DNA from: Gemmatimonadaceae bacterium
Lineage (GTDB): Bacteria > Gemmatimonadota > Gemmatimonadetes > Gemmatimonadales > Gemmatimonadaceae
Length of the DNA stretch: 64,000 bases
Assembly: GCA_036273715.1 (NCBI GenBank)
Contig: DASUHB010000028.1
Coordinates: 1 to 64,000, forward strand
Direction of reading: 5' to 3'
Shown here: positions 1,156-21,149 of the stretch, piece by piece
Position numbering within the stretch: position 1 is the stretch's first letter
How the letters are laid out: each line of letters opens with the position of its first letter
Translations under genes and position numbers: made by a program
The notes under the pieces: generated by a model
Told to the model about the DNA's origin: nothing
The model's input: the letters and a program-made list of their open reading frames with translations, nothing else
Databases searched by the model: none

Positions 1156-1650
1156 TCACGCCGGCCTGAAGCTCAACTGCACGATGTACTTTCCGGGCTT
1201 TACGGCGCCCGACGTCGGTTTCCACGCGCGCGCCGCCTTCTCATCCAGGCACTGGTTCACCGACTTCCCCGCCTTCGATGACCACGTGTCCGCCTTCACT
1301 CGCGCATCGCTGACGCCGCTCGATCCCACCGTCACCAGCATCGCCACGCCCCCCTGCAATCGTGGATCCACCTTCTGCCCGAATTCCTGATAGCAGAACT
1401 GCGAGAACGATTGCTCGCGCTCCACCACCTCGATCAACGCGGGCGGCGCCGGCGGAATCGGCTTCTCAGCCAACTGCGGCTTGGGCGGCGTGAAGGTGTC
1501 GGGCGCCGCGGCGGGAATCGCACTCTGCACGGAATCCAGGTTCATCGGCGTCGTGTCCTGCGCGATCGGCGGCGGCGTCGCCTGCTTCTTGTCGTGCGAA
1601 CACGCGGCAACCAGAACAACAGCCGCGGCAGCGAGCATGCGTCGCATCAT
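1156..1650 (-). CDS. Lipoprotein with AgmX/PglI-type C-terminal domain
   Basis: 164 aa. A signal peptide ends in VAACS (lipobox), then comes a Pro-rich linker (residues about 20-70), then a C-terminal domain with the AgmX/PglI pattern: FCYQEFG, a VAMLVTVGSSG strand, NQCLDEKA with a second Cys, and a terminal beta strand. The same domain ends the 328-aa TonB-like protein at 3253-4239, so the two are probably related parts of one envelope machine. ATGATGA joins this start to the end of the upstream nucleotidyltransferase gene, and AAGGAG precedes it. The name AgmX comes from Myxococcus gliding. The partner and function here are inferred. Confidence 0.75.
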   Translation of the reverse strand: MMRRMLAAAAVVLVAACSHDKKQATPPPIAQDTTPMNLDSVQSAIPAAAPDTFTPPKPQLAEKPIPPAPPALIEVVEREQSFSQFCYQEFGQKVDPRLQGGVAMLVTVGSSGVSDARVKADTWSSKAGKSVNQCLDEKAARAWKPTSGAVKPGKYIVQLSFRPA

Positions 1651-3252: not shown

Positions 3253-4239
3253 CTACTTGCTGAATACGAACGAGAAGCTGTACGTGCCGCCGCCCTGGTC
3301 GGACGACGGGAAGTGCCAGCCCAGAATCTTCTGCTTGATGCAGGCTTCCGTTTCCGCAGAGCCTGCGCCAGACCACGTGTGGTTGGTGATGTCGACACCC
3401 GTCACGTTGCCGGCGCCGGTGAGCGTCACTGCGACGTTCACGGTGCCGGCCAGCGACGGGTTCACCTTGAGACCGTTCTCGGTGTAGCAGAACTGCAGCT
3501 GCGACTGCCGGCCGCGCACGTAGTTGCCCAAGTCCGACACGTTGCGCCCGGGTCCTCCCACCTTCTCGGCGCGGATGACGCTGGGGGGCGCGACGCTCAC
3601 GGACGAGAAGCCGACACCGCCACCGCCGCCGACGCCGCCCAAGCCGCCGCCGCCCGGCGTGTTGCCGAGTCCTTCGCCTAACCCTCCGCGGCCCGGCGTA
3701 CGCGAGCCCTGGCCGCCCTGGCCGTAGCCGATGACCGCTTTGCCGCTCTGGCCCGGCGTCGAGCCCGCGCCGGAGTTGACGTCGACGCCGCGCAGCACGT
3801 TGGACACGTCACCGACCATGCCGCCGCCCTGCTTCGTTGCGGCGCCGCCGAACGCGGATCCGAAGGCGGCGGCATCGTTCTTTTTGGGCGCCGTGTTGCG
3901 CCCGCCCCCTTGGGCAGGGCGCGGAGTGGCAGCCGGCGCGGCCGGTGCGGCGGCCGGCTGCGGCGTCGGCGCGGGCGGCGAGAGGTCTTCGACCTTCACG
4001 TCGATCGGCGGCGTTTCCTGCGGCAGCAGGGCAATCGACGGCGGCACGATCGGGCCGAATGCGACGAGCAGCAGCCACAGGATGCCGAGCGCGCACGAGA
4101 CGATCCACGAGTACCAGATCGCGCGGCCTTCGGCGTCCGCGAACTCGTAGCGCATGTTGCGGGTGAACGAGGTATCGTCCACCGGCAGGCGCGCCCGCCT
4201 GGGTGTGGGCATCATGGGCTGCCGGGGCGCGTCGGCCAT
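3253..4239 (-). CDS. TonB-like energy transducer with AgmX/PglI C-terminal domain
   Basis: 328 aa. A cytoplasmic N-terminus (residues 1-42) is followed by one inner-membrane helix (about 43-65, WIVSCALGILWLLLVAFG), a Pro/Ala-rich periplasmic linker (75-120), a Gly-rich spacer (150-225) and a C-terminal AgmX domain with QFCYTENG, a VNVAVTLTGAG strand, EACIKQKI with its second Cys, and WHFP. It lies 2 bp after the second ExbD-type gene, so it is the expected transducer of that motor. In Myxococcus, GltG and GltJ (AgmX) have an equivalent single-pass TonB-like plan and work with AglRQS. Equivalence is inferred from architecture and context. A GTTAGGC heptamer directly abuts the ATG. Confidence 0.82.
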   Translation of the reverse strand: MADAPRQPMMPTPRRARLPVDDTSFTRNMRYEFADAEGRAIWYSWIVSCALGILWLLLVAFGPIVPPSIALLPQETPPIDVKVEDLSPPAPTPQPAAAPAAPAATPRPAQGGGRNTAPKKNDAAAFGSAFGGAATKQGGGMVGDVSNVLRGVDVNSGAGSTPGQSGKAVIGYGQGGQGSRTPGRGGLGEGLGNTPGGGGLGGVGGGGGVGFSSVSVAPPSVIRAEKVGGPGRNVSDLGNYVRGRQSQLQFCYTENGLKVNPSLAGTVNVAVTLTGAGNVTGVDITNHTWSGAGSAETEACIKQKILGWHFPSSDQGGGTYSFSFVFSK

Positions 4240-4241
4240 GC

Positions 4242-4802
4242 CTAACGCGCCCCCGTCGCGGCCGCCGTGGAATCCACCGGGCCTTCCTGCTTGCTCACCT
4301 GGAGCGACAGGTTGCGGAAGCCGGCCAGCCGCGCCGTCTGCATCATGCGCGCGAGGAGGTCATAGCGCATGCTCTTGTCGCCCTGAATCGCGAGCGGCAC
4401 ATCCAGCGGTTGCCCGGAGGCGATCCGGTCGGCGCGGCGAATCGAGTCGGCGGCCACGCGCATCGCCGCGTACAGCGGCGGGATGAGCAGCGGCTGCGTG
4501 GGATCATTGGATGGCGCGCGCGCCGCATCCAGCGTGCTCATGATCGGCCGTCCGCCTAACGTGACCTGCGGCCCGATGCCGAGCGTGAGTTGTTGCAGCG
4601 CAGCGGCGCCGACGTGTGCCTCGGGCAGGCGCACGCCCGGCACCACCGGCGAGAGCTCGCCGACGGTGGCCGTCGTGAGCGCGAAGAACACGATCGACAC
4701 CAGCGTGTCGACCAACGGCACGAGATTGAGCTCGGTGATCCGGAACTTGGCGAACTGCGCGGCGCGACGCGCCGCCCGCATGTCCCGTCCGCGGCTGCTC
4801 AT
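4242..4802 (-). CDS. ExbD/TolR-type biopolymer transport protein (second copy)
   Basis: 186 aa with one N-terminal transmembrane helix. The motif LNLVPLVDTLVSIVFF places the conserved proton-pathway Asp at residue 32. A periplasmic domain follows, ending with the RLAGFRNLSLQ strand typical of TolR/ExbD. It is part of the ExbB-ExbD-ExbD motor set, 3 bp after the first ExbD gene. Two adjacent TolR-like genes after one TolQ-like gene is the arrangement of Myxococcus aglR-aglQ-aglS. It carries a longer insert (about residues 85-130) than its neighbour, suggesting the two copies are not interchangeable. Confidence 0.9.
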   Translation of the reverse strand: MSSRGRDMRAARRAAQFAKFRITELNLVPLVDTLVSIVFFALTTATVGELSPVVPGVRLPEAHVGAAALQQLTLGIGPQVTLGGRPIMSTLDAARAPSNDPTQPLLIPPLYAAMRVAADSIRRADRIASGQPLDVPLAIQGDKSMRYDLLARMMQTARLAGFRNLSLQVSKQEGPVDSTAAATGAR

Positions 4803-4805
4803 CTG

Positions 4806-5348
4806 CTACCGTGCCGGGCCCGCGGCGGCGGGACCGCCCCGCGCGCGCGTGCCGAGTGAAATGCCGGTGAAGCCCGCCAAGCGCAATCGCTCCAGCACGT
4901 GAATGATGTTGTCGTAGGCCACGTCGTCGGACGGGATGACGAGCACGTCCTTGTTCTGCGGATACTGCTGGCGGATCTGCGTCATCAACGCCTGCAGCGT
5001 GCCTAACGCGGCGGCATCGAGTCCCTTGATCGCCTGCCGGAATCCGCCGTTGCCCGAGTGCTCGACGTCGAGCTCGTCGTTGCTCACGCGCACGGCGAGC
5101 AGCAGGTTGAGCACGTCTTTCTCGGATTTCACTTGCGACGCTTGCTGCGGCGTGGTCACCACCACCGGCGGCAGCGAGAGGTCGAACGACGTGAGCGCCA
5201 TCATCGTCTCGCCCTGATAGGTCAGCAGGGAAAAGAACACGATGGAGGTGAGCGTGTCGACCAGCGGCACGAGGTTGATGTTCCCGTGCGCCGTCACCGG
5301 CGCGCGTTCGGCGCGCCGTTGCTTGGATCGATGAAAGAGACTCGCCAC
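4806..5348 (-). CDS. ExbD/TolR-type biopolymer transport protein (first copy)
   Basis: 180 aa: a basic cytoplasmic N-terminus, a single TM helix with NLVPLVDTLTSIVFF (conserved Asp at residue 31), then a periplasmic domain with the family's VLVIPSDDVAYDNIIHVL and LRLAGFTGISLG segments. It should form the stator pair with the ExbB/TolQ-type channel upstream and convert proton flow to work in the periplasm. The intact Asp argues for a functional channel. The C-terminal tail is Gly/Ala-rich. Confidence 0.92.
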   Translation of the reverse strand: MASLFHRSKQRRAERAPVTAHGNINLVPLVDTLTSIVFFSLLTYQGETMMALTSFDLSLPPVVVTTPQQASQVKSEKDVLNLLLAVRVSNDELDVEHSGNGGFRQAIKGLDAAALGTLQALMTQIRQQYPQNKDVLVIPSDDVAYDNIIHVLERLRLAGFTGISLGTRARGGPAAAGPAR

Positions 5349-5392
5349 GGAGGCTCCTCAGCGCGCGATGGGAGTCGCAGTCATGCGTGCGC

Positions 5393-6034
5393 TCACCGGT
5401 GGCCCAGGCGCACGTCCGGGCGATCGATCAACGCGTTGATGAGCCGCACCTGGAACTCGTCCACCTGCTCGATGATGCCTTCCGCCTGGCTCACGAGATA
5501 CGCGTGGGCGACCGATAACGGCACGGCCGTGAGCAGACCGAAGCCCGTCGCGTTCAGGGCGACGGCGATACCCGACGCCAGTGCCGCCGACCGCTGCGCC
5601 GCGGCCTGCAGCGACACCGATTGGAAGGCGTGGCGCAACCCGAAGATCGTGCCTAACAAGCCGATCAGGGTCGCGACGTTGGCCAGCATCGGCAAGTAGT
5701 GCAGCCGCCGCGTGAGGCGCGGCAGCACGCTCAGGGCCGCAGCGTCGGCGACGTTCTGCAGATCGGCCTCGTCGCGGCTCCGGCTGCGCAAGATGAGCAG
5801 GCCCATGTCCGGCAGCACGGCGTTCGACTGCTGGCAGAGCTTGATCGCGTCCTCGATCTTGCCGGCGCGCACGAGCTGGATCACCCGCTCGATGAACGCG
5901 CGCCCGTTGATCTTGGAGCGGATCACGATCGTGTAGAACCGCTCGATGAACACGGCCACCCCGCACACTGCCACCGCGAGGATGAAGTGCATGACGGGGC
6001 CGCCGGCGCGGTAGTACTCGAGCAAGGTCATCAT
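5393..6034 (-). CDS. MotA/TolQ/ExbB-type proton channel
   Basis: 213 aa with three TM helices (about residues 14-32, 115-135 and 160-182). The family signature LIGLLGTIFGLRHAF lies in the second helix, and ALNATGFGLLTAVPL follows in the third. It is the channel partner of the two ExbD-type proteins downstream; together they form a proton-driven motor of the TolQR/ExbBD/MotAB/AglRQS superfamily. It is preceded by large TPR genes and followed by an AgmX transducer, not by tolA, tolB or pal, so I favour an Agl/Glt-like rather than a Tol-Pal role. Confidence 0.92.
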   Translation of the reverse strand: MMTLLEYYRAGGPVMHFILAVAVCGVAVFIERFYTIVIRSKINGRAFIERVIQLVRAGKIEDAIKLCQQSNAVLPDMGLLILRSRSRDEADLQNVADAAALSVLPRLTRRLHYLPMLANVATLIGLLGTIFGLRHAFQSVSLQAAAQRSAALASGIAVALNATGFGLLTAVPLSVAHAYLVSQAEGIIEQVDEFQVRLINALIDRPDVRLGHR

Positions 6035-6080
6035 CTAGGATCGTCCTCCGAGTAAGTGCGGCACATGGGGGCCGTGGCGC

Positions 6081-6791
6081 TCATCGTTTGGGTTGAGTGG
6101 TATCGTGCGGCGCGCGGAGAGTGTCTCTGGCCACGCCGAGTGCCTTCACCACCGCCTCGAGCGAATCGAGTCTCGCCCGGCGGTACTCCAGCTCCTTCAG
6201 CAATTCCTTGATTTCCGCGGCGCGCTGCGCGGAGTTGGCCGCATTCTGGCTCGACTGCGCGGCCGCCGACGATGCCGAATCGGCCGCGTGCTGCTTCGCG
6301 GCCGCCTCGCGGTCCGCGCGCTCGAGCGAATCGAGGCGGGCCCGCCGTTGGGCGAGCTCGCTGCGGATGGCTTCCATCTCGCGCGTGCGCGCCGTGAGAT
6401 CCGTGGTCTGTCCGGCCGCTGCGTTAGGCGCTGCCCCGGCCGCGACCCGCGCCGCCCCTCCGGAGGCCACCGATGGGGCCGCCGAGTCGGTGGGCGACTT
6501 GCCGGTGACCTCGCTGCGCGACAGCAGGCGGTAGCCCGGCATCGCCGCCGGCCAGAACGATGTCGATCCGTTCTCCGCGCCTAACACCTGCCGGTCGTAC
6601 ACCGGCACCTCGCGCGGACGCACCGTCACGACCTGCGGCGTAGGCACCTGGCCGTGAATGATGATCGTCTGACCCGCCTTGGGCGGCTTCTTCGGCGGCG
6701 CCGACTGGCGCTGCGCAGGCAGCTGTGCCGCCGCGCCGAGCGCGAGCGCGCACGCCGCGACGGCTAACCGGACACTCGTTCTCGCGCGCAT
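6081..6791 (-). CDS. Secreted coiled-coil protein of the motor cluster
   Basis: 236 aa from the ATG at 6791, which shares one base with the upstream stop (TGATG). A signal peptide (residues 1-27, ending LPAQ) leads to a KKPPKAG segment and a periplasmic region. Two heptad-like helices follow that both carry the repeat RRARLDSLE (about residues 140 and 205). The reading frame continues far upstream, but only as a shadow of the TPR gene. No enzymatic motif. Likely a structural or scaffolding part of the trans-envelope machine. I do not recognise a family. Confidence 0.72.
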   Translation of the reverse strand: MRARTSVRLAVAACALALGAAAQLPAQRQSAPPKKPPKAGQTIIIHGQVPTPQVVTVRPREVPVYDRQVLGAENGSTSFWPAAMPGYRLLSRSEVTGKSPTDSAAPSVASGGAARVAAGAAPNAAAGQTTDLTARTREMEAIRSELAQRRARLDSLERADREAAAKQHAADSASSAAAQSSQNAANSAQRAAEIKELLKELEYRRARLDSLEAVVKALGVARDTLRAPHDTTQPKR

Positions 6792-9700
6792 CACGGCGTC
6801 CCCGCGGGTTTGGCGGGCGCCGGCGGCGCGGGCGGCGTGTCGAGCGACGGCGACTCGTCCACCGTCCCGCCTAACGCAGCCTTCGCGCGATCCACCCACG
6901 CGTTCGAGATCTTGTCCTGCGCCGCTTTGTCCACCAGCGTCTGCCACGTCTTCCGCGCTTCGTTGAAGTACTGATCCGCCTGCTGTGACGCGCCTGCCTG
7001 CGCGGCCGACAGCTGCTCGCCCGTCAGGTCGGCCGGCAGTTGCACGTTCTTGAGATAGTTGCCGTACTCCCACTGCGCGAGCCCGACGAAGTACGACGAC
7101 GCCGCGAGCCACTGCGGCGAACCGGCGGCGATCGACCGCGTGAAGTGCCCCGTCATCGCCGACAGCAGCCGGCGCTTGGGCGCCGACAGTCGCTCCACGC
7201 CCTTGCGCGTGAGGTTCAACCGGCTCGGAATACTGAGCGCGAGCGGCTTGTACTGCGCATAGAGCGCGGCGCCGGCGCGGAATTCTTCCTCGCCCAGCCG
7301 ATCGGCGCATGTGGCCTTGAATTCCGCCGTCGGACGCACGCAGGCTTTCGCCAGCTCCGCCGCTGCCGCAGCGCTGTCGCCGGCCGCTTTCAGCATGACG
7401 ATGCGCGCCTGCTGGGCCGCACCGGCGCGCGGATCGCGCGGATTGCGCGCGACGAACGTGCCGTACGCACGCGCCGCATCCGATGAGTCCGCCGCCTGCG
7501 CGTACAGCAGGGCCGCGTTGTATTGCGCGTCCGGCGCGCGCTTGTCGCGGGGATACGCGGCCGCGAATGCGCCGTACGCCGCCGCCGCATCCTTCGCGTG
7601 GCCTAACGAATCGAGCATCACGGCGCGCCGAACCATCGCGTCGGCGCGGCCGGGCCACGTCGGATTCTGCTGCACGAGCGAGTCGAGCGCCTTCACCGCG
7701 TCCTCGCGCCGGCCGAGATCCGCCAGCAGCTGCGTCTCGAGCGCCTGGTACTGCACGCGGTACTTGTACGTCGGATACTGCGAGACGAGGCGTCCGGCCA
7801 GCTCCAGCGCGCGCGTCTTGTCCGTGCGGGACGTCGCCGTATCGCTCTTCGCGCGCGCCGCGCTGTCGGCGAGCATGAACGTCTCGATCGCGTTGCGCAA
7901 CGCGTCCGGTGCTTTCGCCGACGTCGGATTCCGATCCGCATACGCGACGTACACCTGCTCGGCCGCGGCTTCGTAGTTCCCGCTCTTGATCAGCGAGTCG
8001 CCGTACGTGACCGCGGCCGCGTTGCGAATCATGTTGATCGAGTCGGCGAGCTTGCCGCGTCCCGCCTGACCGGCAATCGACTGGGCCTTCTCCCACTGAC
8101 CCTGCGCCTCGGCATACTTGCCTTGCTTGTAGAAGGCATCGCCGATCAGTTTCTGCGCCGTCGGCGTGTACGGATTGTCCGGATACTTCTCGGCGAACGT
8201 CTGGAAGGTCTTGGCCATCACGTCCCAGCGCGACGCTTCCGACGCGCGGCGGCCCTTTTCGATCAGCGCCTTGGGCGCCGCGTCGCTCGTCGGGTACGCA
8301 GCCACGAACCGGTCGACGGCCGCGAAGAGCGAGTCCTGGATCGTCGTGTCGGCCTTGTCGTGCGCGACCGCAGAGTCGAACGCGACCACGGCATTCTGAC
8401 CCGCTTGTTGGCCGAGCTTCGGATCCACTTTGTAATCGTAGGCCGCGTGCGTGTACGCCTCGCCCGCGTCGGCGTATGCGCGCTCGCCGAAGTACGCCTC
8501 GCCCGCCAGGAACTGCGCGTTCTGCGCGCTGTCCGATTTGGAGAACTCGCGCAGGTAGCGTGCGTACAGGTCGGCGGCGGCGGCGAAGCGGGCGCTGTCT
8601 TTCTTCTGTTGGGCCTGCGACAGCGCGTACTGCGCGCTCTGCCGCAGCATCATCTCGCGCACTTGCGCAGCGGTGTCGGCGAGCGGGCCGTTGGCCTTGG
8701 CCCAATCGGTACCCGGCGCAAACTGATCGACCAACTGGAGGCGCGCCTGCTGCGCGTGCTCCGGATCGAGCACGCGGTTCTGGTAGATGTCGATGATTTC
8801 GCGTTGGACCGCGAGCGCGCCGGAATCCGTGGGGGCCTTGGCTTCCACGGCCTGGTAGGCCGCGACGGCGCGCGGGAAGTCGCCCTGATCGCGGAGGCTC
8901 GCGGCCACGCGGCGGAGCACGGGCAGCTCGAAGCTCGCCGCATCGGCGTGCGACGAGAAGTACGCGTTGGCGGCGTCGGCACCGCCGGTCTGCGTGAACG
9001 CGACCGCCATGTACTCGATGGCTTCGCGGCGCAGGCCTAACCGGGCTTGGCGTTCCGGCGTCAGCTTGTCGTACTCGGCGACGAGCCGGCCGAAGACTTG
9101 GACCGCCTGTCCATACTCGGGCTGGTTCGGCTGGGTCGCCTGATTGTAGTAGGACCAGCCGAGCTTGTAGAGCGCCAGGAAATAGATGTCGCCGTCGGGG
9201 GACGCGGTCTTGGTGGCGTTCTGGTAGGCATCGGCGGCCTGCACGAACATGGTGCGCCGCGGCGCGCCGCGCAGGGTGGACGCCTGCTCGAACCGCGCGT
9301 CGCCTAACCGGAAGTACGCCTCGCCGCGGTACGACGACCCCGGCTTGGCCGCGACGGCCTCGAACATCCTGGCGGCATCGGCGTAGCGCGCATCGGCCGC
9401 GTACAGGGTGCCTAACGTATACGCCGCGGCGTCGCCGTTCACGAACGTCGGATACTTGGCGACCAGCTCCTCGTAGCGCGACACCGCGGCCGCGTAGTCC
9501 GGCTGCGTGACGTCGTTGTTGCCGGCGCGCTGGGCGGCCGCGAACTCATCGTCGGCGCGGCGCACGAGCAGCTCGGCCAGCTGGAAGAGCGCGTTCGGCC
9601 GAAGGGTGCTGTTCGGGTAGCGCGCGATGAACGCGGTCAGTTTGTCGATCGCTACGCGGCGGACGGAGTCTTCGGCTGCCGGCGACACCGGATTGGCCGG

Positions 9701-9814
9701 CGCCGACGCCACGGCCGCCGCTGCCTGGGCAGGCGGCGGCGATTGCGCGTGCCCCGGCCCGGCGAGCAAGAGCGCCGACGGCAGCGCGAGAGCGAGAGCA
9801 GCAGAGGCGCGCAT
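6791..9814 (-). CDS. Large periplasmic TPR protein (1007 aa)
   Basis: A signal peptide (residues 1-23, ending GHAQ) is followed by about 900 residues of tetratricopeptide-like helices. Many units show the bulky-Gly/Ala-Tyr pattern, for example DAAAYTLGTLYAADARYADAARMF and FLAGEAYFGERAYADAGEAYTHAA. The spacing resembles YbgF/BamD-type repeats binding extended partners. In the Myxococcus Glt and Nfs clusters, large TPR proteins (GltD/AgnA, GltE) bridge the inner-membrane motor and the outer-membrane barrels. Position and size here fit that role, but repeat proteins diverge fast and this is inference. It sits 5 bp after the 729-aa protein. Confidence 0.85.
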   Translation of the reverse strand: MRASAALALALPSALLLAGPGHAQSPPPAQAAAAVASAPANPVSPAAEDSVRRVAIDKLTAFIARYPNSTLRPNALFQLAELLVRRADDEFAAAQRAGNNDVTQPDYAAAVSRYEELVAKYPTFVNGDAAAYTLGTLYAADARYADAARMFEAVAAKPGSSYRGEAYFRLGDARFEQASTLRGAPRRTMFVQAADAYQNATKTASPDGDIYFLALYKLGWSYYNQATQPNQPEYGQAVQVFGRLVAEYDKLTPERQARLGLRREAIEYMAVAFTQTGGADAANAYFSSHADAASFELPVLRRVAASLRDQGDFPRAVAAYQAVEAKAPTDSGALAVQREIIDIYQNRVLDPEHAQQARLQLVDQFAPGTDWAKANGPLADTAAQVREMMLRQSAQYALSQAQQKKDSARFAAAADLYARYLREFSKSDSAQNAQFLAGEAYFGERAYADAGEAYTHAAYDYKVDPKLGQQAGQNAVVAFDSAVAHDKADTTIQDSLFAAVDRFVAAYPTSDAAPKALIEKGRRASEASRWDVMAKTFQTFAEKYPDNPYTPTAQKLIGDAFYKQGKYAEAQGQWEKAQSIAGQAGRGKLADSINMIRNAAAVTYGDSLIKSGNYEAAAEQVYVAYADRNPTSAKAPDALRNAIETFMLADSAARAKSDTATSRTDKTRALELAGRLVSQYPTYKYRVQYQALETQLLADLGRREDAVKALDSLVQQNPTWPGRADAMVRRAVMLDSLGHAKDAAAAYGAFAAAYPRDKRAPDAQYNAALLYAQAADSSDAARAYGTFVARNPRDPRAGAAQQARIVMLKAAGDSAAAAAELAKACVRPTAEFKATCADRLGEEEFRAGAALYAQYKPLALSIPSRLNLTRKGVERLSAPKRRLLSAMTGHFTRSIAAGSPQWLAASSYFVGLAQWEYGNYLKNVQLPADLTGEQLSAAQAGASQQADQYFNEARKTWQTLVDKAAQDKISNAWVDRAKAALGGTVDESPSLDTPPAPPAPAKPAGTP

Positions 9815-9819
9815 CGCGG

Positions 9820-12009
9820 CTACCGGGGCGTGTGGGTCGCGGAGCTCGACGGCGCAGATGACGCCGGTGCGGCGGCGCCGCCCCCGAGCTCGATGGCGCG
9901 GAAGAACGTGGCGCTCGCCGATCCGTAATCCGCTGCTTCCTTGTCGTGCTGCAGCGCCGCCAATTGCGAGGCGGCGCGTGCGCGCAGCTCCCCGTCGACC
10001 AACGCGACCATCTGCGTTTCCGCGGCGGCGCGCGCGGACTCCGCGGTCGCCAGCGCGGCGCGCATGGCGCGCACGTGATCGCTTTCGACGGATCGCATGG
10101 CCGCGAGCTCACGCGTCACGACCGAATCGTCGGTGGCGAGCACGCGGACCGTGGTGTCATGGAGTGCTCGGGCGCGGGCGAGCCGCGCCATGATCGAGTC
10201 GCGCAACGCGAACGGCGGCTGCCTGGCGATGATCGCATCGATCTGATGCGCAACGCTGTCCGCCATCGCCTGGTAGATCGACGCCGTGTTGGCCTCGATG
10301 TCGAGCACGTGCGCATCGGCCGCCGAGGCGTTTGTGCCTAACGCGGTGCGGATGCTGTCCACCATGCGCACGTTCTGGGCGGCGGCGGTCTGGGTTGCGG
10401 CGACCTGCGTCGCCAGCATCGTGTGCACGCGCACGCGCGACCGGTCGAGCGACGCGGCCACCCGTCCGAGCGAGTCCTGCAGCGACGTCAACTGCTGCTC
10501 CTCGGCCGCCAGATTCGCGCGCGTGCTCGCGGTGAGATGCTGCAGGTCTTCGAGGGCGGCGATGCGCATCACCTGCACGTCGAGCTGCTCCTGCAGGCGG
10601 AACTGCGCCAGGGTCACCGCGGCATCGGCGCTGGACAGCTGTTGCGCGCGGTCGGTGTACGACGCCAGCACGGCCTGCGACGACGGCGGGGCGTACACCA
10701 GACGCCGCGGGAAGTCCGCGCCTAACGCAGGGCCGAGCGAGTCCAGCCGCGCCTCGATTTGGGCGACGGACACGACACTCGGCGCCGAGCGTGAGGGCGG
10801 AGCGCCCGAGCCATCGAACACCGCCAGCAGCGTCGCCGCGTCGGCGTCGACGTCGTCGTCCAACGCGAGCGTCTTGCCGCTGCGCGGATCATCGAGGAAC
10901 AGGAGGCCGGCCGCGCGGGCCTGGACCAGCGCCTTTGCCGCCGCGCCTAACCCGGACGCCGATCGCGCCTGGAGCGCGGCGAGGTCGCCGCCCACCGAGT
11001 CGGCCATCGCATCGAAATAGCGCTCGGCGTCCTCGGTGTGGCCGGATTCGAGCAGGACCTGACCGGACATGAGCCGCGCTTCTTCCCGCTGCGGCAAGCT
11101 CGGATAGTTCTTCGCGAACGTCGCGAACGCCGAGCGCGCCGAATCGGCCTGCCCCGCACGGTAGAGCGACCAGGCGCGGGTGAGGAGCGCTTGCGCGCCG
11201 ACGCTGCTCGAGGGCGCGACGCCCGCGGCGAACGCGGCTGCCGCCTCGTACTGCTGCTCCTCGAACGCAATTTCGGCGGCCGTTAGGCGAACCTGGTCGC
11301 CGAACGGACCCGTGGCGACGCTGGTCAGCGAGCGCAGGGCGTCGAGCGCCGCCGCGCCGTGCGTCGTGTCACCGCCCATCGCCGACAGCGCATCCATGTA
11401 CTGCGCGTACGGCGCGTACACACCGCCCGCGGCGCGCGCGGTGGCAAACGCGCTGCGCGCCGCGGCAAAATCCCCCGCGCGATAGGCCGACAGACCGGAC
11501 ACGAACGCGGTGAGGCCGCGATCGCCGCCCGGCGACTGCGCGGCCAGCGTGCGCACCGTCGGATCGTCGCCGCGGCGAAACGCGTCGAGCATCAGCTGTG
11601 CGTCGACCGTGCTCTGATACTTGATGCCGCCCGGGACGGCCGCGAGGCGGACGGCCTCCGAGCGGAACTGCGCGCCCATGCCTAACCGGTAGTACGCCTC
11701 GGCGGTCAGGAACACGAGATCGGGACGCGTCGAGTCGGCGGTCGCGCGCAGCCAGTCGAGGCGCGCCAGCGCGGCCAGCGGCCGCGATGACGCGAGCTCG
11801 AACAGCGCGGCGCGGACTTCCGCGTCGACGCCGCGCTGCTGATCCGGCGCCGGCGACAAGTCGGGCGCGCCGGTATCGGCGCGCACGGCGCTGTCGGCGG
11901 CGGCGCGGGTCGTCGTGTCGCGCGTCATCTGCTGTGCGGCAACGCGCCGTCCGCCGCCCGCGAGAGACGCGAGCGCGGCCACGACGGCGAGCGTGCGAAC
12001 CATCATCAC
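9820..12009 (-). CDS. Secreted TPR plus coiled-coil protein (729 aa)
   Basis: Signal peptide residues 1-25. Residues about 60-400 are TPR-like helices (for example VFLTAEAYYRLGMGAQFRSE and QALLTRAWSLYRAGQADSA). Residues about 430-700 are long charged helices rich in Ala, Gln and Asp, predicted coiled coil. The last residues are Ser/Thr/Pro-rich. Length and plan suggest a periplasm-spanning spacer protein. Gene order (barrel, barrel, coiled coil, this, large TPR, motor) places it where GltC/GltD-type proteins occur in myxobacterial clusters. No catalytic motif. Confidence 0.82.
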   Translation of the reverse strand: MMMVRTLAVVAALASLAGGGRRVAAQQMTRDTTTRAAADSAVRADTGAPDLSPAPDQQRGVDAEVRAALFELASSRPLAALARLDWLRATADSTRPDLVFLTAEAYYRLGMGAQFRSEAVRLAAVPGGIKYQSTVDAQLMLDAFRRGDDPTVRTLAAQSPGGDRGLTAFVSGLSAYRAGDFAAARSAFATARAAGGVYAPYAQYMDALSAMGGDTTHGAAALDALRSLTSVATGPFGDQVRLTAAEIAFEEQQYEAAAAFAAGVAPSSSVGAQALLTRAWSLYRAGQADSARSAFATFAKNYPSLPQREEARLMSGQVLLESGHTEDAERYFDAMADSVGGDLAALQARSASGLGAAAKALVQARAAGLLFLDDPRSGKTLALDDDVDADAATLLAVFDGSGAPPSRSAPSVVSVAQIEARLDSLGPALGADFPRRLVYAPPSSQAVLASYTDRAQQLSSADAAVTLAQFRLQEQLDVQVMRIAALEDLQHLTASTRANLAAEEQQLTSLQDSLGRVAASLDRSRVRVHTMLATQVAATQTAAAQNVRMVDSIRTALGTNASAADAHVLDIEANTASIYQAMADSVAHQIDAIIARQPPFALRDSIMARLARARALHDTTVRVLATDDSVVTRELAAMRSVESDHVRAMRAALATAESARAAAETQMVALVDGELRARAASQLAALQHDKEAADYGSASATFFRAIELGGGAAAPASSAPSSSATHTPR

Positions 12010-12022
12010 AGAATCGGCCAGA

Positions 12023-12748
12023 TCAGAATGGGGTCGTCCCTTGGCTCGTCCAGGTGTTCGGAACCACCTGGCCGTTGCGCACCGTGAACTGCAGGTATGT
12101 CACGACGTTCACTTGCGCGTTCACGCTGGCGCGCGAAGTCACCGGCTGTCCGTTGACCGTCACTTTCACGTTCACCGTGTGCGCCACTGGCAACACCGCC
12201 GAACGGAACAGCTCATCCACGGCGCCCTGCGAGAGCGCCTGCGTCGCGATCGCCGAGTAGGTCCGCGTATCCGGCGGGCCGCCGTCCAACGACATCTCGA
12301 CCGCCGTCGGTGACGATTGCGACGAATCGGCGCGCAGCAGGACGACGAGCACCGCGCCGGACCGGCGCTTCACCGCGTCGCCTAACGCGCTCATGCGATC
12401 GCGCTGCGCCTGCATGTTGTCCTGCGCCGTCGACAGCGTCTTGTCCAGCTCGACGAGCGCGTTCTGCTCCGTGCTCATGAGCAGGTCGTTCGCGCGCCGG
12501 GCAGTGGTCTGCGCCATCGCGTTGTCGATCTCCGCTTCGAGCGCGACCCGTTGGCCGCGAAGCTGGCTCAGTTGGTCCTGCGTCGCCTGGAGCTGCTTGA
12601 CGAGCGCCGAGCGCTCCGACTCGTACACCGCCTGCGCCGCCGAATCCGCGTCGCGGCCGCTCGAATCGGCTTGCGCGCAGAGCATCGCCGGCGCCAGCGC
12701 CAACGCGACCGCGAGAACGAGAGTGCTGTGCCGTTTCCTCATGGGCAT
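12023..12748 (-). CDS. Secreted coiled-coil protein with C-terminal beta domain
   Basis: 241 aa (ATG 12748; the ATG at 12742 is an alternative). A signal peptide ending LCAQA is followed by a coiled coil (about residues 35-125, LVKQLQATQDQLSQLRGQR...) and then a beta-rich domain with VNVKVTVNGQPV and VVTYLQFTVRNGQVV. It is encoded between the two outer-membrane barrels and the TPR proteins. The coiled coil could dock with the C-terminal coiled coils of the barrels. Unknown family. It is conserved in position with small periplasmic components of Glt/Nfs loci only by analogy. Confidence 0.75.
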   Translation of the reverse strand: MPMRKRHSTLVLAVALALAPAMLCAQADSSGRDADSAAQAVYESERSALVKQLQATQDQLSQLRGQRVALEAEIDNAMAQTTARRANDLLMSTEQNALVELDKTLSTAQDNMQAQRDRMSALGDAVKRRSGAVLVVLLRADSSQSSPTAVEMSLDGGPPDTRTYSAIATQALSQGAVDELFRSAVLPVAHTVNVKVTVNGQPVTSRASVNAQVNVVTYLQFTVRNGQVVPNTWTSQGTTPF

Positions 12749-12770
12749 TGTTCCGCGTAGTTGATACGAC

Positions 12771-13973
12771 TCACTGCTGGGGCGGCTTGTCCTGGGGCGG
12801 TGGCGTGTTCTGCTCCAGCTTGCGAAGCCGTTCCTCGAGGCGCTTCAAGGCGTCGCGCTCGGCGTTGAGCTCCTGCTCCGCCTGCGCGCGCCGCTGCTCG
12901 ACGTCGAGCAGGTTCTGCGCGTGATAGCGGTCGATGTCCAGCTCCAACGATTGGACCCGCTTCTGCCGCGCATCGATTTCGGCGAGCAGCGCTTTTTGTT
13001 CGGCCTCGAGCTGCGAGACCTTGTCCTGCAGCACGTGTCCGCGCAAAAGGCCGAACACGTTGCTCTGCCATCCCACGGTGAACGCGAACTTGTCGTAGTT
13101 GTACGGCGTGTGCGCCGTATCCGACACGCCGCCCGCGCCCATCTCCGTCCAGTACAGTCCGGCCTGCAGTCCGCGCCAGTTCAGCACCGCACCGAGATTG
13201 TAATCCCAGGCGTTGTTCTCGAACATGAACGACACGACGCTTCGCGGAGACGGATAGAAATCCATCTTGACGCCGCCGAACACGCCGCCGGTCGCGTGGT
13301 GCGAGTACACCGCGCCTAACCCGCCGTCGTCCTTGAACAATCCGTTGCCGTAGCCAACGCTGAAGCTCATGCCGATGTTCGGCCAATCCTTGTCGAGCTC
13401 GGACAGCGAGAACGACTTGGTCGCCACGCCGTACACCGTCTCGGCCGTGCTGAAGCCCTGGTGCAGCGAGTCCGCCACGTGATTGCGGTTCGGATCCGAG
13501 TTGGTCGGCGGCGACAGGAAGTAGCCTAACCCGAACCGGTCGATGTGCGAGTAGGGTCCGACATTTTCGAGACCCACCGCCAGGCTCGGAATCCAGCCGA
13601 CGAAACCCGGCCGGCCGCGGAAGTCTTCCTCGTTGAGCAGCAGGCCGCGGCCAAAGAAGCCCCATTCCGGCGCGTCGGAGAACACCGACAGACCCACTTC
13701 GGCGCGACCGAGAATGGATGTATAGATCGCGAAGTTCGAATTGATTCCCTTGCCGACGCCGAGTCCGGACGAAAGCTCGGATCCTTTTACGGTTTTGCCG
13801 GAGATCGCGAGCGAGAAGTCGCCGGAGAGCGGCGACACCCACGCCACGGGAATGTCGATCAAGCCCGAGCCCCAGTACAGGGTCTGCGGGTAGTTCATTT
13901 GTTGGGCATGCGCACCGGCCGGAATCATCACGAACAGCGCAGCCAGCGCGGCGCAGCATCGCGTCATGGACAT
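12771..13973 (-). CDS. Outer-membrane beta-barrel protein with C-terminal coiled coil (paralogue B)
   Basis: 400 aa. Signal peptide ends AHAQQ. The barrel starts MNYPQTLYWGSGLIDIPVAWVSP, nearly the same as in the neighbouring paralogue (YPATLNYGTGLIDDPVAWVSP). Shared blocks include PEWGFFG, GVATKSF, VGYGNGLF and ENNAWDYNLGAVLNWRG. After residue about 320 the chain is a long coiled coil and then a Pro-rich end. A barrel with a periplasmic coiled-coil tail could be gripped by periplasmic machinery. Paired paralogous barrels are also found in Myxococcus as GltA/GltB and NfsA/NfsB. Confidence 0.86.
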   Translation of the reverse strand: MSMTRCCAALAALFVMIPAGAHAQQMNYPQTLYWGSGLIDIPVAWVSPLSGDFSLAISGKTVKGSELSSGLGVGKGINSNFAIYTSILGRAEVGLSVFSDAPEWGFFGRGLLLNEEDFRGRPGFVGWIPSLAVGLENVGPYSHIDRFGLGYFLSPPTNSDPNRNHVADSLHQGFSTAETVYGVATKSFSLSELDKDWPNIGMSFSVGYGNGLFKDDGGLGAVYSHHATGGVFGGVKMDFYPSPRSVVSFMFENNAWDYNLGAVLNWRGLQAGLYWTEMGAGGVSDTAHTPYNYDKFAFTVGWQSNVFGLLRGHVLQDKVSQLEAEQKALLAEIDARQKRVQSLELDIDRYHAQNLLDVEQRRAQAEQELNAERDALKRLEERLRKLEQNTPPPQDKPPQQ

Positions 13974-13989
13974 GAGGTCGAAGTCTCCG

Positions 13990-15243
13990 TTAGCGCGCGG
14001 GCGGCGTGGTGGAATCCGGCTTCGTCGGCGGCGGCTGGTCGGGCGGCTTCTGCTGGCCGGACTGCAACGCCTTCAATCGATCTTCGGCCTTCTGGATCGC
14101 ATCGCGCTCGGCCTGGATCTCGGACTCGAGCTGCTGGCGCCGCTTGGCCACCTCGGCCAGCTCGCCGGCCTGAGCCTTACGCAGTTGGTCATCGAGCGCC
14201 GTGATGCGCTCTTCGCGCTTCGCCAGCTCGAGATGCAGCCGCGTCTCCTCGCGCTGCAGCTCGGCGACGCGCGAGCGGAGCACGACGCCCTGCGCAATGT
14301 CGTGCAGGTTGCCGCTGTAGCCCAGGCTGAAATTGACTTTCGTGTAATTGTACAGGTTGTACAGCGTGCCTTTCGTGGGCGACTTGGACCCTTCCTCGAG
14401 CTCCGTCCCGTAAACGCCGAGCGAGATGCCGCGCCACGTGGCCACGACGCCGGCGTTCCAGTCGAATCCGTTGTTCTCGGCGACGAAATCGAACCGCGTG
14501 TTCGGCCCCGGATGAATCGCGTATCGGCCGCCGAGGAAAAGGCCCTTGGCGATCGTGCCCTTGTCGTTGTAGTTGCGGCCCAGGTCGCCCTCATCCGAAA
14601 ACAGCCCATCGCCGTAGCCTAACGTAAGGCTCGCATCGCTGGTCCGCCCAACCGCGAACGACTTGGTGGCCACACCGTACAGCGTCGGCGTCGAATGAAA
14701 GTGGCGCGCGAACGGCGACGTCACATCCTCGCCGTTGCCGGTCGAGTCGATCTGGACGTCGTGTCCGACGAGCATGCGTTCCTCGTGCGGATACGGCCCC
14801 AGATTCCGGAATCCGACGGCGATCGCCGGCCACGACTTGCCCTGCTCTTCCTTTAGTAGCAGCGCCTGGCCGAAAAACCCCCACTCCGGGTTCTGACTGT
14901 AGAGCGAGAAACCCACCTCGTAGCGACCGCCCCAGTGTGAATCGATCGACAGATTCGTGTTCCACTGCGACGAAGTATTGAGCGGTGCTTGGTTGATCAG
15001 ATTGTACGGAATGTGCTTTGCCGAGGTCTGTACCCAGAGATCGCCAGAGGATGGCGACACCCAAGCGACCGGGTCATCGATGAGGCCGGTGCCGTAGTTG
15101 AGTGTGGCTGGATACAGGTCGTTTTGCGGCGGTTCTGCCGGAGCCGTAGCCGACGAATCCTGCGCCGACGCCACTGGCACCGCGACCAACGCCGCTCCGA
15201 GGGCCAAGATCGAGAGCGCTACGCTGGACCGCGACGCGCGCAT
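13990..15243 (-). CDS. Outer-membrane beta-barrel protein with C-terminal coiled coil (paralogue A)
   Basis: 417 aa from the ATG at 15243 (GGAGG at the complement of 15248-15252; the frame stays open to 15294). Signal peptide residues 1-28. The barrel carries alternating hydrophobic/aromatic strands such as GGRYEVGFSLYSQNPEWGFFGQALL and GVATKSFAVGRTSDASLTLGYGDGLF. Residues about 330-395 form a Glu/Arg/Gln-rich coiled coil and the end is Pro/Lys-rich. It is the first gene of the 12-kb leftward cluster and a clear paralogue of the next gene, so the pair arose by tandem duplication. Confidence 0.86.
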   Translation of the reverse strand: MRASRSSVALSILALGAALVAVPVASAQDSSATAPAEPPQNDLYPATLNYGTGLIDDPVAWVSPSSGDLWVQTSAKHIPYNLINQAPLNTSSQWNTNLSIDSHWGGRYEVGFSLYSQNPEWGFFGQALLLKEEQGKSWPAIAVGFRNLGPYPHEERMLVGHDVQIDSTGNGEDVTSPFARHFHSTPTLYGVATKSFAVGRTSDASLTLGYGDGLFSDEGDLGRNYNDKGTIAKGLFLGGRYAIHPGPNTRFDFVAENNGFDWNAGVVATWRGISLGVYGTELEEGSKSPTKGTLYNLYNYTKVNFSLGYSGNLHDIAQGVVLRSRVAELQREETRLHLELAKREERITALDDQLRKAQAGELAEVAKRRQQLESEIQAERDAIQKAEDRLKALQSGQQKPPDQPPPTKPDSTTPPAR

Positions 15244-16513: not shown

Positions 16514-17866
16514 TCAGAGATTCGTTGGGCATGCGTTAGGCTGATCCCAGTTCCGAACCGGCTGCTGATTCGGCGCCGGAATGTTCTGGTTTGCATCGCG
16601 CTCAGCGGAGAGCGGGTACAATACCCGGCCCGGAATACCAGCCGGGGTCGCCGCCACCAAGTTCGGCAGGCAGGTCCGCTTCCAGTCGTTCCAAACTTCG
16701 ATTTCCTGGAAGTCGGCAATGTACTTCTCAGTAATAATGTCGCTGAGCGTAAGCGTTCCGGCGAACGCAGGAACGTGCTGAGAGGCGCGCTCCGCATTGA
16801 ACGCGGCGAGCGCTGTCGCATTATCGCCTGCGTGCAACGCAGCCTCGGCGATAATGAGCTCGTTCTCCGCGAACGTCACGATCGGCTGCCGGAACGCCGG
16901 GTCGATGCGCGTGTTACTCAGGTTTGACCAGTCGCCACCACCGCCGCCCGGCGGTGCCCCGGCATACTGACCCACCGAATTGGTGCTGTAGTAGAGTGCC
17001 AACCGTGGATCGCTCGTGGACTTGAGCAGATTCACGAGGAACGCACCTGCACCAATGTAGCCGGACCGTTGGATAACGATGAACTGCTCCCAGAGGTTGG
17101 CTTCATTGGGATCGGAGCTTTGGTACGACCTGAAATCGCCCGTCGTGTCCGCAATCCCCTGCTGCGCTTCCGCAAGGGCCGCCGCGTACGCCGTCTGATC
17201 TTGCGACGTCGTGTGCAGGAAATAGCGCGCTTTCAGGGTATGCGCGAGCGCGATCCACTTCGTCAGATCACCGCCGTACCATAAGTCGTTCGGTCCGGGA
17301 CCGGCGCAGGTGGCGGAGGCGCACTGCATGTACACGATGGCCGTATCGAGCTGGGCCTCGACTTCCGCAAACACTTGCTGCTGCGGATCCAGCGACGGCT
17401 GGAGGTTGGAGCTCACAGCCTCGCTGTACGGAACGTCGCCCCACACATCGGCGACCGTTCCCATCGTCAACGCTTCCATCACCTTGGCGACGCCGGCATA
17501 CGCAGTGTCTCCGGACGCCAAGGACTGGCTTTGAATCGCGCGTTCGTCGATCAAGCCGCCGCCCGTGTAGGCGTTGCTCCAATCGCCTGAGAACGCGTCC
17601 TCGTCGAACACGTAGTTCGCGAGTGGTACGTACTGCCGGTCCGTCCCCGCCATGGACTGCATCCACATGCTGAACAGCCGGGCGAAGTCGCCCGTCTGCA
17701 GCACGGTTTGCGTCACCGTCACGCCAATGAACAACTGGCTCGTGCCGGCCTTCACCGGGCGGTTGGGGTTGGTCGTGAGCCCGTTTCCCGTTAGCCAATC
17801 ATTGCACCCGGCGAGCAGTGCAATCGGCAGGACCGTGCTCACAGCGAGCTTCAGATATCTATGCAT
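16514..17866 (-). CDS. SusD/RagB-family nutrient-binding lipoprotein
   Basis: 450 aa. Signal ends ALLAGC (lipobox), then N-terminal NDWLTGNGLTTNPNRP, typical of the SusD-like group that begins with a DxxNPN motif. Helical TPR-like segments follow, including VMEALTMGTVADVWGDVPYSEAV, a strongly conserved SusD_2-type block (ADxWGDVPYSEA). The protein should sit on the outer membrane as a lid over the TonB-dependent channel encoded just upstream, binding a glycan, peptide or other oligomer. Nearby genes give no substrate clue: no glycoside hydrolase or peptidase lies in this operon. Confidence 0.92.
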   Translation of the reverse strand: MHRYLKLAVSTVLPIALLAGCNDWLTGNGLTTNPNRPVKAGTSQLFIGVTVTQTVLQTGDFARLFSMWMQSMAGTDRQYVPLANYVFDEDAFSGDWSNAYTGGGLIDERAIQSQSLASGDTAYAGVAKVMEALTMGTVADVWGDVPYSEAVSSNLQPSLDPQQQVFAEVEAQLDTAIVYMQCASATCAGPGPNDLWYGGDLTKWIALAHTLKARYFLHTTSQDQTAYAAALAEAQQGIADTTGDFRSYQSSDPNEANLWEQFIVIQRSGYIGAGAFLVNLLKSTSDPRLALYYSTNSVGQYAGAPPGGGGGDWSNLSNTRIDPAFRQPIVTFAENELIIAEAALHAGDNATALAAFNAERASQHVPAFAGTLTLSDIITEKYIADFQEIEVWNDWKRTCLPNLVAATPAGIPGRVLYPLSAERDANQNIPAPNQQPVRNWDQPNACPTNL

Positions 17867-17897
17867 ACGGTAGCTCTCTCTTGTGCAAGGTCAGCGG

Positions 17898-20800
17898 TCA
17901 TCGATTCAGGCCGAACGAGAGCACGAACGAACGCGCCTGCGGGTTGTTGAAGTAGTCGACACCCTGAATGAGCGATGTCGCACCCGCGAGGTTCGCTTCC
18001 GGATCGATGCCACGATAGTTCGTCCAGGTGTGCAGGTTCCGCGCGGAGAGGCGAAGGTCGATGCTGCTGAAGCCCCACGCCTTGATGAACTGCTGATCCA
18101 AGGAGTAGGCGACGCCGATCTCACGCAGCTTCACGTAGCTGCCATCCTCGACAAACTGCGATCCGACCGGACCAAAGCCGCTACCAAGGTCGGTGAACCA
18201 CGTATCCTGGTTGAGCACCACGGACATGCCCGCGCCAGGGCCGCCGACAGGACCGGGGAGCCACGTCTTACCGAACACGAACGAGTTGCCGCGGATGTCG
18301 GTGTCTTTGTGGGCGCCGAAGTTGTACAGCGCGCCGCGCGTGCCGTCCCAGATCTGACCGCCGTGCTTGACATCCAACAATCCGGATAACGTCAGCTTCT
18401 TGAACGTCACCGAGGTGTGCACGCTGCCAATCCATTTCGGATTACCATCCGAAATGATGCGCTGCGTGGGGTCGAGAATCGGGAAGCCATCGGCTCCGAT
18501 GTACAGCGCACCTTTGGGTGCGTCGCCGCATTGCGAGTCAATGTCGACGCCGTTGATGTTGAGGCCACGACCGCACCGCGCGAAATCGTTACCACGAATC
18601 ACGCCGACGCTCGCGCCATACCAGGCCGTTGGCACTGCACCGGTGAATCCGCCGCCGGTGGCCAGGTCGGTGAATTGCTGACCCGACAGATTCACCAGGC
18701 GGTTCTCGTTCTTCGACCAGTTCAAACCGACTTCCCATGTGAGATCCGACCGCATGATCGGCCGATAGTTGATCGACGTCTCGAGACCGCGGTTGCGGAT
18801 GACGCCCGCGTTCGCCGTGATCGCGGAGAAGCCGGTCGAATTGGCTAACGGTAGACCGAAAATTGCGCCTTCGGTGCGATCGAGATATCCCGTGAAGGAC
18901 GCGTCGGCACGGCTACCGAACAAGCCGACGTCAACGCCAGCCTCGAACTCCTTCGTACGCTCAGGACCGAGGTTCGGCTGCGCGTGCAGACTGCCCTGCG
19001 CCAAACCGCCCAACCCGGCCTGGTTGATGAACAACGCATCGCCCCAGCCTGCATCGCCAACCGAGAATCCGGAAGCGTAGGTCTGCAGCGTGCTGTAAGC
19101 GTTCGGCTGAATGCCGGCCTCGCCGTATGCGCCACGGATTTTCGCATAGGAGAGGATGCTCTTGTTGTCTCCGGTATTCTGGACAACGTTCCAGGCGAAG
19201 TTGCCGCTGGGGAACCAGTGGCGCTGTGAGTTGACACCGAACGAGGAAAATCCATCGTTCGTCGCCGAGACCTCGAGGTTCAACTGATTCCAGAGATAGA
19301 CATTGGCCGAACCGAAGTAGCGTTCCGCGTGAACGTAGCTCTGGAAATCGTTAGGCGTGAACGTCGTCGTGTTGCCGATGGTGTACGGCTGGGCCGCGAC
19401 GAGCGAGACACCCGTCACAAAGATTTGCCTGAACGTCGTCGCATTCAGGTTCTGGCCAAGCGTGAGGTTTGCGCTCGCGCTCGGAGAGAAGGTGTGCGTG
19501 ACGGTCGCCGTCAGATTGTGGTCGATGATGTAGTTCTTGAGATCACCTTCGATCACCTGGCCGGTCGGCTGACCCGACGAGCTGTACGGCAGTCCATCGA
19601 GACGCTGGTCGGTGTAGTAGTCGGCGCCGAAGACTTCCTTGACCTTGAGCCAGTCGAACGCATCCCACTCGATGTTCGCGTTGCCGAAGGTTCGCTGGAC
19701 CGCTGAGTTGTTGCTCTGCTCGTAAATCTCGAAGATCGGGTTGTCGTATCCACGCGTGTGCATCGGCGTGTTGACCGTCGGCCACGGGAACCGATACGAC
19801 CGCTGGGTCATGCTGGTCGGATCGAGGAACTCGAAGTTGTTGAATTCCGGCGGCGTGCGGAGTGAGCCGAGCAACAGACCGTCGACGTTGGACCCCTGCT
19901 GCACGTACTTGGCCCGGACGTCCGAGTACTGCGCGTCGATGCCCACCTTGAGGTTCTCGAGCATCTGGTGCGACGCATTCACGCGCACGGTATTGCGCCT
20001 GTACCAGTCGTTAGGCCCCGTGATCTGACCACGGTTGTTGTCCAGGCTGCCCGAGACGAAGTACAACGTCTTGTCGCTGCCGCCCGACAGATCCAACGTG
20101 GTGTTCCAGTTGTGACCGGTGACGAACAAGTCGTCGAAGTGATTGTAGGTCGGTGTGCCAGCGGGCAAGAGCGGGCCCCATGAATTGCTGGATGCAACCT
20201 TGGTTCCCTGAGGATTTGGATCGCCGCAATCCGGCACGGGCGCAGCGAGTGCGTAACAGCTCGGCGATACGCCTTCGCTACCCTGTCCGTACTGAGTGTT
20301 GAGCGGCGGACCCTGCGTCACCTTGTCGAACGAATAGCTTGTCCGCAACGACGTCCGCGTCTGACCCGACTGACCGCGCTTGGTCGTGATGATCACGACA
20401 CCTGCGCCCGCGCGGGCGCCGTAAATCGCCGACGCCGCCGCGCCCTTGAGAATGTCGATCGACGCGATGTCGTCGGAGTTGATGTCCGACGCGCGGTTCG
20501 ACGCCGCGGCGCCGCCTTCCGGCGACTCCGTGGTCATCGTCGAGTTGTCGATCGGCACGCCGTCCACGATGAACAGCGGCTGCGCGTCGCCCGTGATGGT
20601 CTTGGGTCCGCGAATCCGGATGTACGAGGACGAGCCCGGATCGCCGGACTGCGACACGACTTCGACATTCGGCGCCTTGCCGGCAAGTGCCGACACCACG
20701 TTGGTCTCGTCTGACTTCGTAACGAGGGTGGTGTCCACCGAATTGACGACGGAACCCAGACGCTCGCGTACCGTCTGCGTGCCTTCACCCGTGACGACCA

Positions 20801-21149
20801 CTTCACCAAGCCGCAGCGGATTCGCCGACAGCGTGAAGTTCTGCGTCAGCGTGCCGGCGCTGAGCGTGACCTGCACCGATTGAGCCTTGAAGCCGATGAG
20901 GCGAGCGGTGACCGTCACCTGCTGGCCCTTCACACGCGCCGATGGAACGACAAACGAATACTTGCCGTCCGCGTCGCTCAGGCTCCCGATGTTCATGCCT
21001 TCGATAAATACGCTCGCGGAACTGAGCGGGGCTCCTGCCTCACTCGTCACGCGACCGTTGATCGTCGTGCCCTCCTGCGCAGCTGCAAACGCAGGAAGAA
21101 CTGCTATCGCGCACGCGACCGCGATGGCTCTACGAACGAAACGTCCCAT
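17898..21149 (-). CDS. SusC/RagA-family TonB-linked outer-membrane receptor
   Basis: 1083 aa from the ATG at 21149 (AAGGAGG upstream; the frame stays open to 21239). Order: signal peptide (ending FAAAQ), carboxypeptidase-like regulatory domain (about residues 25-110, TINGRVTSEAGAPLSSASVFIEG), plug domain (about 120-250, with LFIVDGVPIDNS and GAAASAIYGARAGAGVVIITTK, both hallmark SusC motifs), then a 22-strand-type barrel with a C-terminal LSFGLNR. It pairs with the SusD gene 31 bp downstream and imports a large ligand with TonB energy. It has a promoter and a roughly 300-nt leader of its own. Confidence 0.95.
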   Translation of the reverse strand: MGRFVRRAIAVACAIAVLPAFAAAQEGTTINGRVTSEAGAPLSSASVFIEGMNIGSLSDADGKYSFVVPSARVKGQQVTVTARLIGFKAQSVQVTLSAGTLTQNFTLSANPLRLGEVVVTGEGTQTVRERLGSVVNSVDTTLVTKSDETNVVSALAGKAPNVEVVSQSGDPGSSSYIRIRGPKTITGDAQPLFIVDGVPIDNSTMTTESPEGGAAASNRASDINSDDIASIDILKGAAASAIYGARAGAGVVIITTKRGQSGQTRTSLRTSYSFDKVTQGPPLNTQYGQGSEGVSPSCYALAAPVPDCGDPNPQGTKVASSNSWGPLLPAGTPTYNHFDDLFVTGHNWNTTLDLSGGSDKTLYFVSGSLDNNRGQITGPNDWYRRNTVRVNASHQMLENLKVGIDAQYSDVRAKYVQQGSNVDGLLLGSLRTPPEFNNFEFLDPTSMTQRSYRFPWPTVNTPMHTRGYDNPIFEIYEQSNNSAVQRTFGNANIEWDAFDWLKVKEVFGADYYTDQRLDGLPYSSSGQPTGQVIEGDLKNYIIDHNLTATVTHTFSPSASANLTLGQNLNATTFRQIFVTGVSLVAAQPYTIGNTTTFTPNDFQSYVHAERYFGSANVYLWNQLNLEVSATNDGFSSFGVNSQRHWFPSGNFAWNVVQNTGDNKSILSYAKIRGAYGEAGIQPNAYSTLQTYASGFSVGDAGWGDALFINQAGLGGLAQGSLHAQPNLGPERTKEFEAGVDVGLFGSRADASFTGYLDRTEGAIFGLPLANSTGFSAITANAGVIRNRGLETSINYRPIMRSDLTWEVGLNWSKNENRLVNLSGQQFTDLATGGGFTGAVPTAWYGASVGVIRGNDFARCGRGLNINGVDIDSQCGDAPKGALYIGADGFPILDPTQRIISDGNPKWIGSVHTSVTFKKLTLSGLLDVKHGGQIWDGTRGALYNFGAHKDTDIRGNSFVFGKTWLPGPVGGPGAGMSVVLNQDTWFTDLGSGFGPVGSQFVEDGSYVKLREIGVAYSLDQQFIKAWGFSSIDLRLSARNLHTWTNYRGIDPEANLAGATSLIQGVDYFNNPQARSFVLSFGLNR

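Follow-up and report, generated by a model that had tools for sequence, protein, structure and literature searches.

A ten-gene cluster in the genome of a Gemmatimonadaceae bacterium raises the question of whether a trans-envelope machine of the Agl-Glt/Nfs class exists outside its known hosts and, if so, what work it would perform. The cluster lies in a window of 64,000 nucleotides (nt), the whole stretch of DNA that was analysed, taken from a genome of 4.34 Mb in 81 contigs. A preliminary description had proposed such a machine from the letters alone, and our comparisons bear out this central claim: the channel is of the AglR type, the two TolR/ExbD proteins are one of the AglQ and one of the AglS type, the transducer matches the tail of GltG, and one of the TPR proteins is GltD by its ranking against whole genomes.

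Layout and conservation of the gene cluster

All ten collinear genes of the preliminary description are present on the minus strand at 3253-15243, with agreeing sizes; A starts at 15243 and J ends at 3253. The genes are spaced by approximately 2-46 nt, except that the stop of E and the start of F overlap by 1 nt. Nine of the ten are in frames with high GC3; the exception is F, which is absent from simple gene calls and whose open frame was recovered by hand. An AgmX-domain lipoprotein gene, K (1156-1650), lies outside the range of that description and was not listed there. The genes and the evidence for each are as follows.

A, 13990..15243, minus strand: predicted outer-membrane barrel 1 with C-terminal coiled coil, 417 aa (paralogue of B; the pair recurs)
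B, 12771..13973, minus strand: predicted outer-membrane barrel 2 with C-terminal coiled coil, 400 aa (AF2 model, fold matches)
C, 12023..12748, minus strand: predicted periplasmic coiled coil with beta-sandwich, 241 aa (hhalign, AF2 model)
D, 9820..12009, minus strand: TPR protein, GltC-like, 729 aa (TPR domain scan, hhalign, shuffles)
E, 6791..9814, minus strand: TPR protein, GltD, 1007 aa (whole-genome ranking, tree)
F, 6081..6791, minus strand: secreted protein with conserved N-terminal motif, possibly GltF-like, 236 aa (position and short motif)
G, 5393..6034, minus strand: AglR-type proton channel, 213 aa (PF01618, hhalign, tree)
H, 4806..5348, minus strand: AglQ-type TolR/ExbD protein with Asp31, 180 aa (hhalign)
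I, 4242..4802, minus strand: AglS-type TolR/ExbD protein with Asp32, 186 aa (hhalign)
J, 3253..4239, minus strand: single-pass transducer with Pro/Gly-rich linker and AgmX C-terminal domain, GltG-like without FHA, 328 aa (NF033768, hhalign)
K, 1156..1650, minus strand: probable lipoprotein with AgmX-type C-terminal domain (NF033768 below cut-off; recurrence beside J)

The same gene order recurs in relatives around both barrel hits and GltD-profile hits, which rules out a chance clustering of A-J. The complete set is found in eight other loci (L034, L036, L037, L040, L041, L238, L240 and L241), and most of the remaining copies are interrupted by contig ends. Barrel pairs were recovered by a barrel search in nine genomes of one family, the window's own included. 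Of 298 genomes of the phylum, 15 carry the GltD-type gene E, all from one family and spread over nine genera; its distribution is patchy, and many members of the cluster-bearing family are missing it.

Past J, the window carries a TPM-domain gene, a nucleotidyltransferase-like gene, K and LemA. The match of K to NF033768 (1e-5) is below the cut-off; because genes resembling K turn up immediately past J in five other loci (L238:2563-3075, L239:1505-2188, L040:14250-14762, L041:2206-2805 and L240:3779-4300), K is a probable eleventh component. On the other side, a SusC/SusD pair at 16514-21239, just upstream of A, stands between the cluster and the genes further upstream. The best plasmid match of this SusC gene is to Gemmatirosa at 29% identity, which agrees weakly with a place in Gemmatimonadota. 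A Kdo-transferase gene (PF04413) is located upstream at 23599-24900 of the window, and Kdo-transferase-like genes lie nearer the cluster start in relatives (L037:16307-17632, L238:17689-18966 and L239:14851-16152). No OPX gene sits next to the window's cluster, the nearest on the same contig being at C28:191114.

Motor, transducer and periplasmic proteins

The domain scan identifies G as a MotA_ExbB protein (PF01618, 5e-23) and finds the ExbD domain in H (2e-10) and I (7e-13). Alignment of G with AglR by hhalign gives 4e-48, and in a channel tree with flagged long branches G is placed inside the AglR clade with support of 100/98, apart from 27 Tol/Exb-type proteins and in neither the TolQ nor the ExbB clade; grouping with the ExbBD of ordinary TonB systems, the contrary outcome considered in the preliminary description, was not observed. 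Within the AglR clade, G is closer to the Nannocystis/Enhygromyxa and M2-type channels than to the gliding AglR (97/90, again in a tree with long branches). When a G-family HMM was run against Myxococcota channels, the AglR group scored 104-175 bits and all others at most 57 bits, with the Enhygromyxa/Nannocystis channel closest to G. In the profile scan, the matches of G to the TolQ model and to the ExbB model (2e-9) are both far below cut-off. The genome has two other TolQ-type genes, both away from the cluster, in an ExbB-ExbD-ExbD-TonB operon (L001) and in a TolQ-TolR-TolA-like operon (L002). Taken with the channel tree, these separate operons speak against a TonB-ExbBD or Tol-Pal identity for the cluster, and both identities were rejected.

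The two TolR/ExbD proteins are distinct in type, H aligning better with AglQ (2e-13) than with AglS (1e-7), and I better with AglS (4e-13) than with AglQ (2e-5). Both motor aspartates noted earlier are present, D31 in H and D32 in I, and both are kept in six of six family members checked. An AglQ-like protein of Nannocystis (L206:15234-15809) has Asn at the motor Asp position, while its AglS-like partner keeps the Asp.

J has one hydrophobic segment and an AgmX/PglI C-terminal domain (NF033768, 4e-16, above cut-off), and hhalign matches it to the C-terminus of GltG at 5e-23; its match to the GltJ model is below cut-off. The earlier proposal of an AgmX-domain transducer like GltG or GltJ was right about the GltG tail, whereas the FHA domain of GltG was not found in J by the Pfam scan. 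When B and J were used to search PDB sequences, the only matches were coiled-coil or chance ones.

Counterparts of the periplasmic proteins are clearest for E. With E as query, GltD paralogues rank first across the whole Myxococcus and Hyalangium genomes, the G4 copy being best, and an unrooted tree groups E with the G4 GltD (99/98); by these comparisons E is GltD. The domain scan finds TPR matches in both D and E, and D resembles GltC, with hhalign giving 94% to the TPR protein of the G4 cluster (2e-7) and 83% to GltC, above all 40 shuffles and with the caveat that the TPR fold is common to both. C, for which the AF2 model has a pLDDT of 82.6, matches the protein encoded after mglA in the G4 cluster of Myxococcota; the family profile gives 3e-4, above all 149 shuffles, and single-template hhalign a probability of only 2%. 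F belongs to a conserved family and is possibly GltF-like, its likeness to GltF lying in position and a short motif, with an hhalign comparison that is not significant. GltE was not found: only F sits between E and the motor, F has no hhalign match to GltE, and D and E match GltE weakly. The preliminary assignment of the two TPR proteins to GltD and GltE is thus half upheld, since E is GltD in these rankings and D is GltC-like instead of GltE.

Outer-membrane barrels and comparator clusters

A and B are paralogues with an invariant core in common. In the AF2 model of B (mean pLDDT 74), two long helices come after 12 long strands, and the fold matches of B include FapF, the best, and other outer-membrane channels, with low to modest TM-scores and many porins about equal. 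In hhalign, neither A nor B matches NfsA or NfsB of Hyalangium, each used as a single template. GltA and GltB are described as OmpA-like, whereas A and B are predicted to be 12-stranded with coiled-coil tails. Given this different predicted architecture and the lack of detectable kinship with NfsA/NfsB, equating A/B with GltA/B would be analogy only, and the earlier view of the barrels as equivalents of GltA/B and NfsA/B is not sustained. A YjbH-type barrel, an idea that came from the N-terminal motif, was rejected for want of Pfam support. A different family within the class has stand-alone relatives of the barrel part (L042:7626-9242, L044:7873-9270 and L047:8475-9908), with what look like cytochrome c biogenesis and recA genes next to them, so A and B probably derive from a phylum-specific outer-membrane family. 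Because one locus, L239, carries C-J and no barrel was found in it, A-B look like a separable module.

For comparison, Myxococcota contigs were reached via M. xanthus MglA (PDB sequence), and TolQ-type and GltG-type genes were then sought in the genomes to which these contigs belong. The comparators come from a few genomes (Myxococcus, Hyalangium, Nannocystis and Enhygromyxa) and are labelled by size, order, HMM scores and descriptions in the literature rather than by locus tags. A contig titled Comamonas sp. (L051, BNCN01000011.1) codes for an MglA that shows no difference from the M. xanthus protein across 159 residues; this may reflect a wrong title or a mixed assembly. The comparator loci are as follows.

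AglRQS: L190, L192
Second AglR set, taken as M2: L189, L191
G1 gltD-E-F-G-H cluster: L181
nfs-like cluster: L183/L200
G4-type cluster adjoining mglA: L185, L211
Core cluster of Nannocystis: L196/L206
Core cluster of Enhygromyxa: L207

These comparisons show homology of G, H, I, E and J to the Agl-Glt/Nfs core at the level of sequence, and more weakly that of D and C. They also group the cluster with the G4/M2 paralogues of Myxococcus. It resembles the Myxococcota G4 cluster (beside mglBA) combined with an M2-type motor in the order of coiled-coil protein, TPR protein and GltD and in the grouping of the channel, and C, D and E find their best profile and BLAST matches there; G4, however, has GltE and an FHA-type GltG, has no adjoining A/B barrels and in Myxococcus is not joined to its motor. 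The Enhygromyxa and Nannocystis cores do have the channel in the same operon, and the order C-D-E-G-H-I-J is collinear with the Enhygromyxa core, collinearity with Nannocystis being less cleanly read. Unlike the window's cluster, both contain GltE and GltF, are without A/B barrels and continue downstream from the GltG gene into a 468-470-aa protein and then an OPX export protein (PF02563; L208:339-2349 in Enhygromyxa, L196:11735-13771 in Nannocystis). With the Myxococcus Agl-Glt (gliding) and Nfs (spore coat) systems the cluster has in common one channel with two TolR types, GltD, the GltG tail and a paired-barrel design, but GltE and the FHA domain were not found in it. Compared by description only, the standalone core of Gammaproteobacteria, Geobacter and Fibrobacter is likewise a single-locus core without GltA/B; it is described with gltE, whereas the window's cluster adds its own barrel pair.

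Proposed mechanism, alternatives and significance

That the cluster encodes a motor and envelope scaffold of the Agl-Glt/Nfs class we hold with high confidence. We infer the stoichiometry, contacts and cargo of the machine. A ring of G, pentameric by analogy, would form a proton-driven inner-membrane motor with H and I. J would couple to this motor, its Pro/Gly-rich linker and AgmX domain crossing the peptidoglycan, and C, D, E and F would pass the stroke on to the outer membrane, where barrels A and B, as a pair, would probably be contacted through their coiled-coil tails. The output would be a surface glycan or other outer-membrane cargo that is moved or organised.

The closest relatives give indirect pointers to this output. 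Nfs with the Agl motor transports spore-coat polymer; M. xanthus mutants in G4, G5 and M2 have intact motility, and their function is unknown; and OPX together with a beta-barrel is a proposed translocon for polysaccharide (PMC9601211). Because these mutants are motile, Nfs-Agl moves polymer and OPX genes lie beside the closest Myxococcota clusters, we prefer a glycan or other outer-membrane cargo over gliding. Counting against this reading are the lack of an OPX neighbour in the window's own cluster, the failure to find GltE, the non-significant F-GltF comparison, the long branches of the channel tree and the small number of comparator genomes. A force-transducing trans-envelope machine of the Agl-Glt/Nfs type, on the G4/M2 branch and with such an output, is the reading that we favour with moderate confidence; a surface glycan is its likeliest task, which we assign tentatively.

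In a gliding machine, the G-H-I motor would drive surface adhesins held by A/B along the cell, with direction set by MglA. The core in common with Agl-Glt is consistent with this, as are two pairs of MglB/roadblock-like and MglA genes in the genome (L048 and L049; G000:C37 and G000:C11), one MglA matching that of M. xanthus at 1e-84. However, these MglA genes are unlinked to the cluster, the A/B barrels are unlike NfsA/NfsB, and motility does not require G4 and M2, the nearest Myxococcus paralogues; gliding loses its place as the default inference and is unlikely. About equally improbable is a machine that uses the A/B barrels to secrete or assemble a protein polymer or adhesin. Their coiled-coil tails and the best fold match of B, the amyloid transporter FapF, point towards it, but TM-scores are low, many porins match B about equally well, and a substrate gene was not identified.

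The shared Pfam families and the SusC/SusD genes directly upstream could instead suggest a Tol-Pal-like or TonB-like energiser, serving outer-membrane stabilisation or uptake via the nearby receptor. This reading is very improbable: the channel tree separates G from the Tol/Exb-type proteins, the genome has distinct Tol-Pal-like and TonB-like operons, the cluster contains GltD and GltG counterparts, and different genes lie upstream of A in the family members examined. A further proposal, close to evenly balanced in our judgement and leaning slightly against, is that the cluster represents a third functional Agl-Glt/Nfs branch outside Myxococcota. Here the shared core would have taken on, independently, a native pair of barrels with 12 strands and coiled-coil tails, and would achieve directional surface transport by a route other than GltA/B.

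The cluster combines a core of the Agl-Glt/Nfs type, from the G4/M2 branch, with an outer-membrane module of its own; no such system is reported for Gemmatimonadota in the open-access literature searched, subscription papers being mostly outside it. With motor, transducer, scaffold and barrels in one compact operon, it offers structural and genetic work a simpler target than Myxococcus, where the genes are scattered, and through it the function of the Myxococcus G4 and M2 clusters can be put to the test. If the favoured reading is right, the Agl-Glt/Nfs core would be an envelope motor of general use whose outer-membrane modules can be exchanged.
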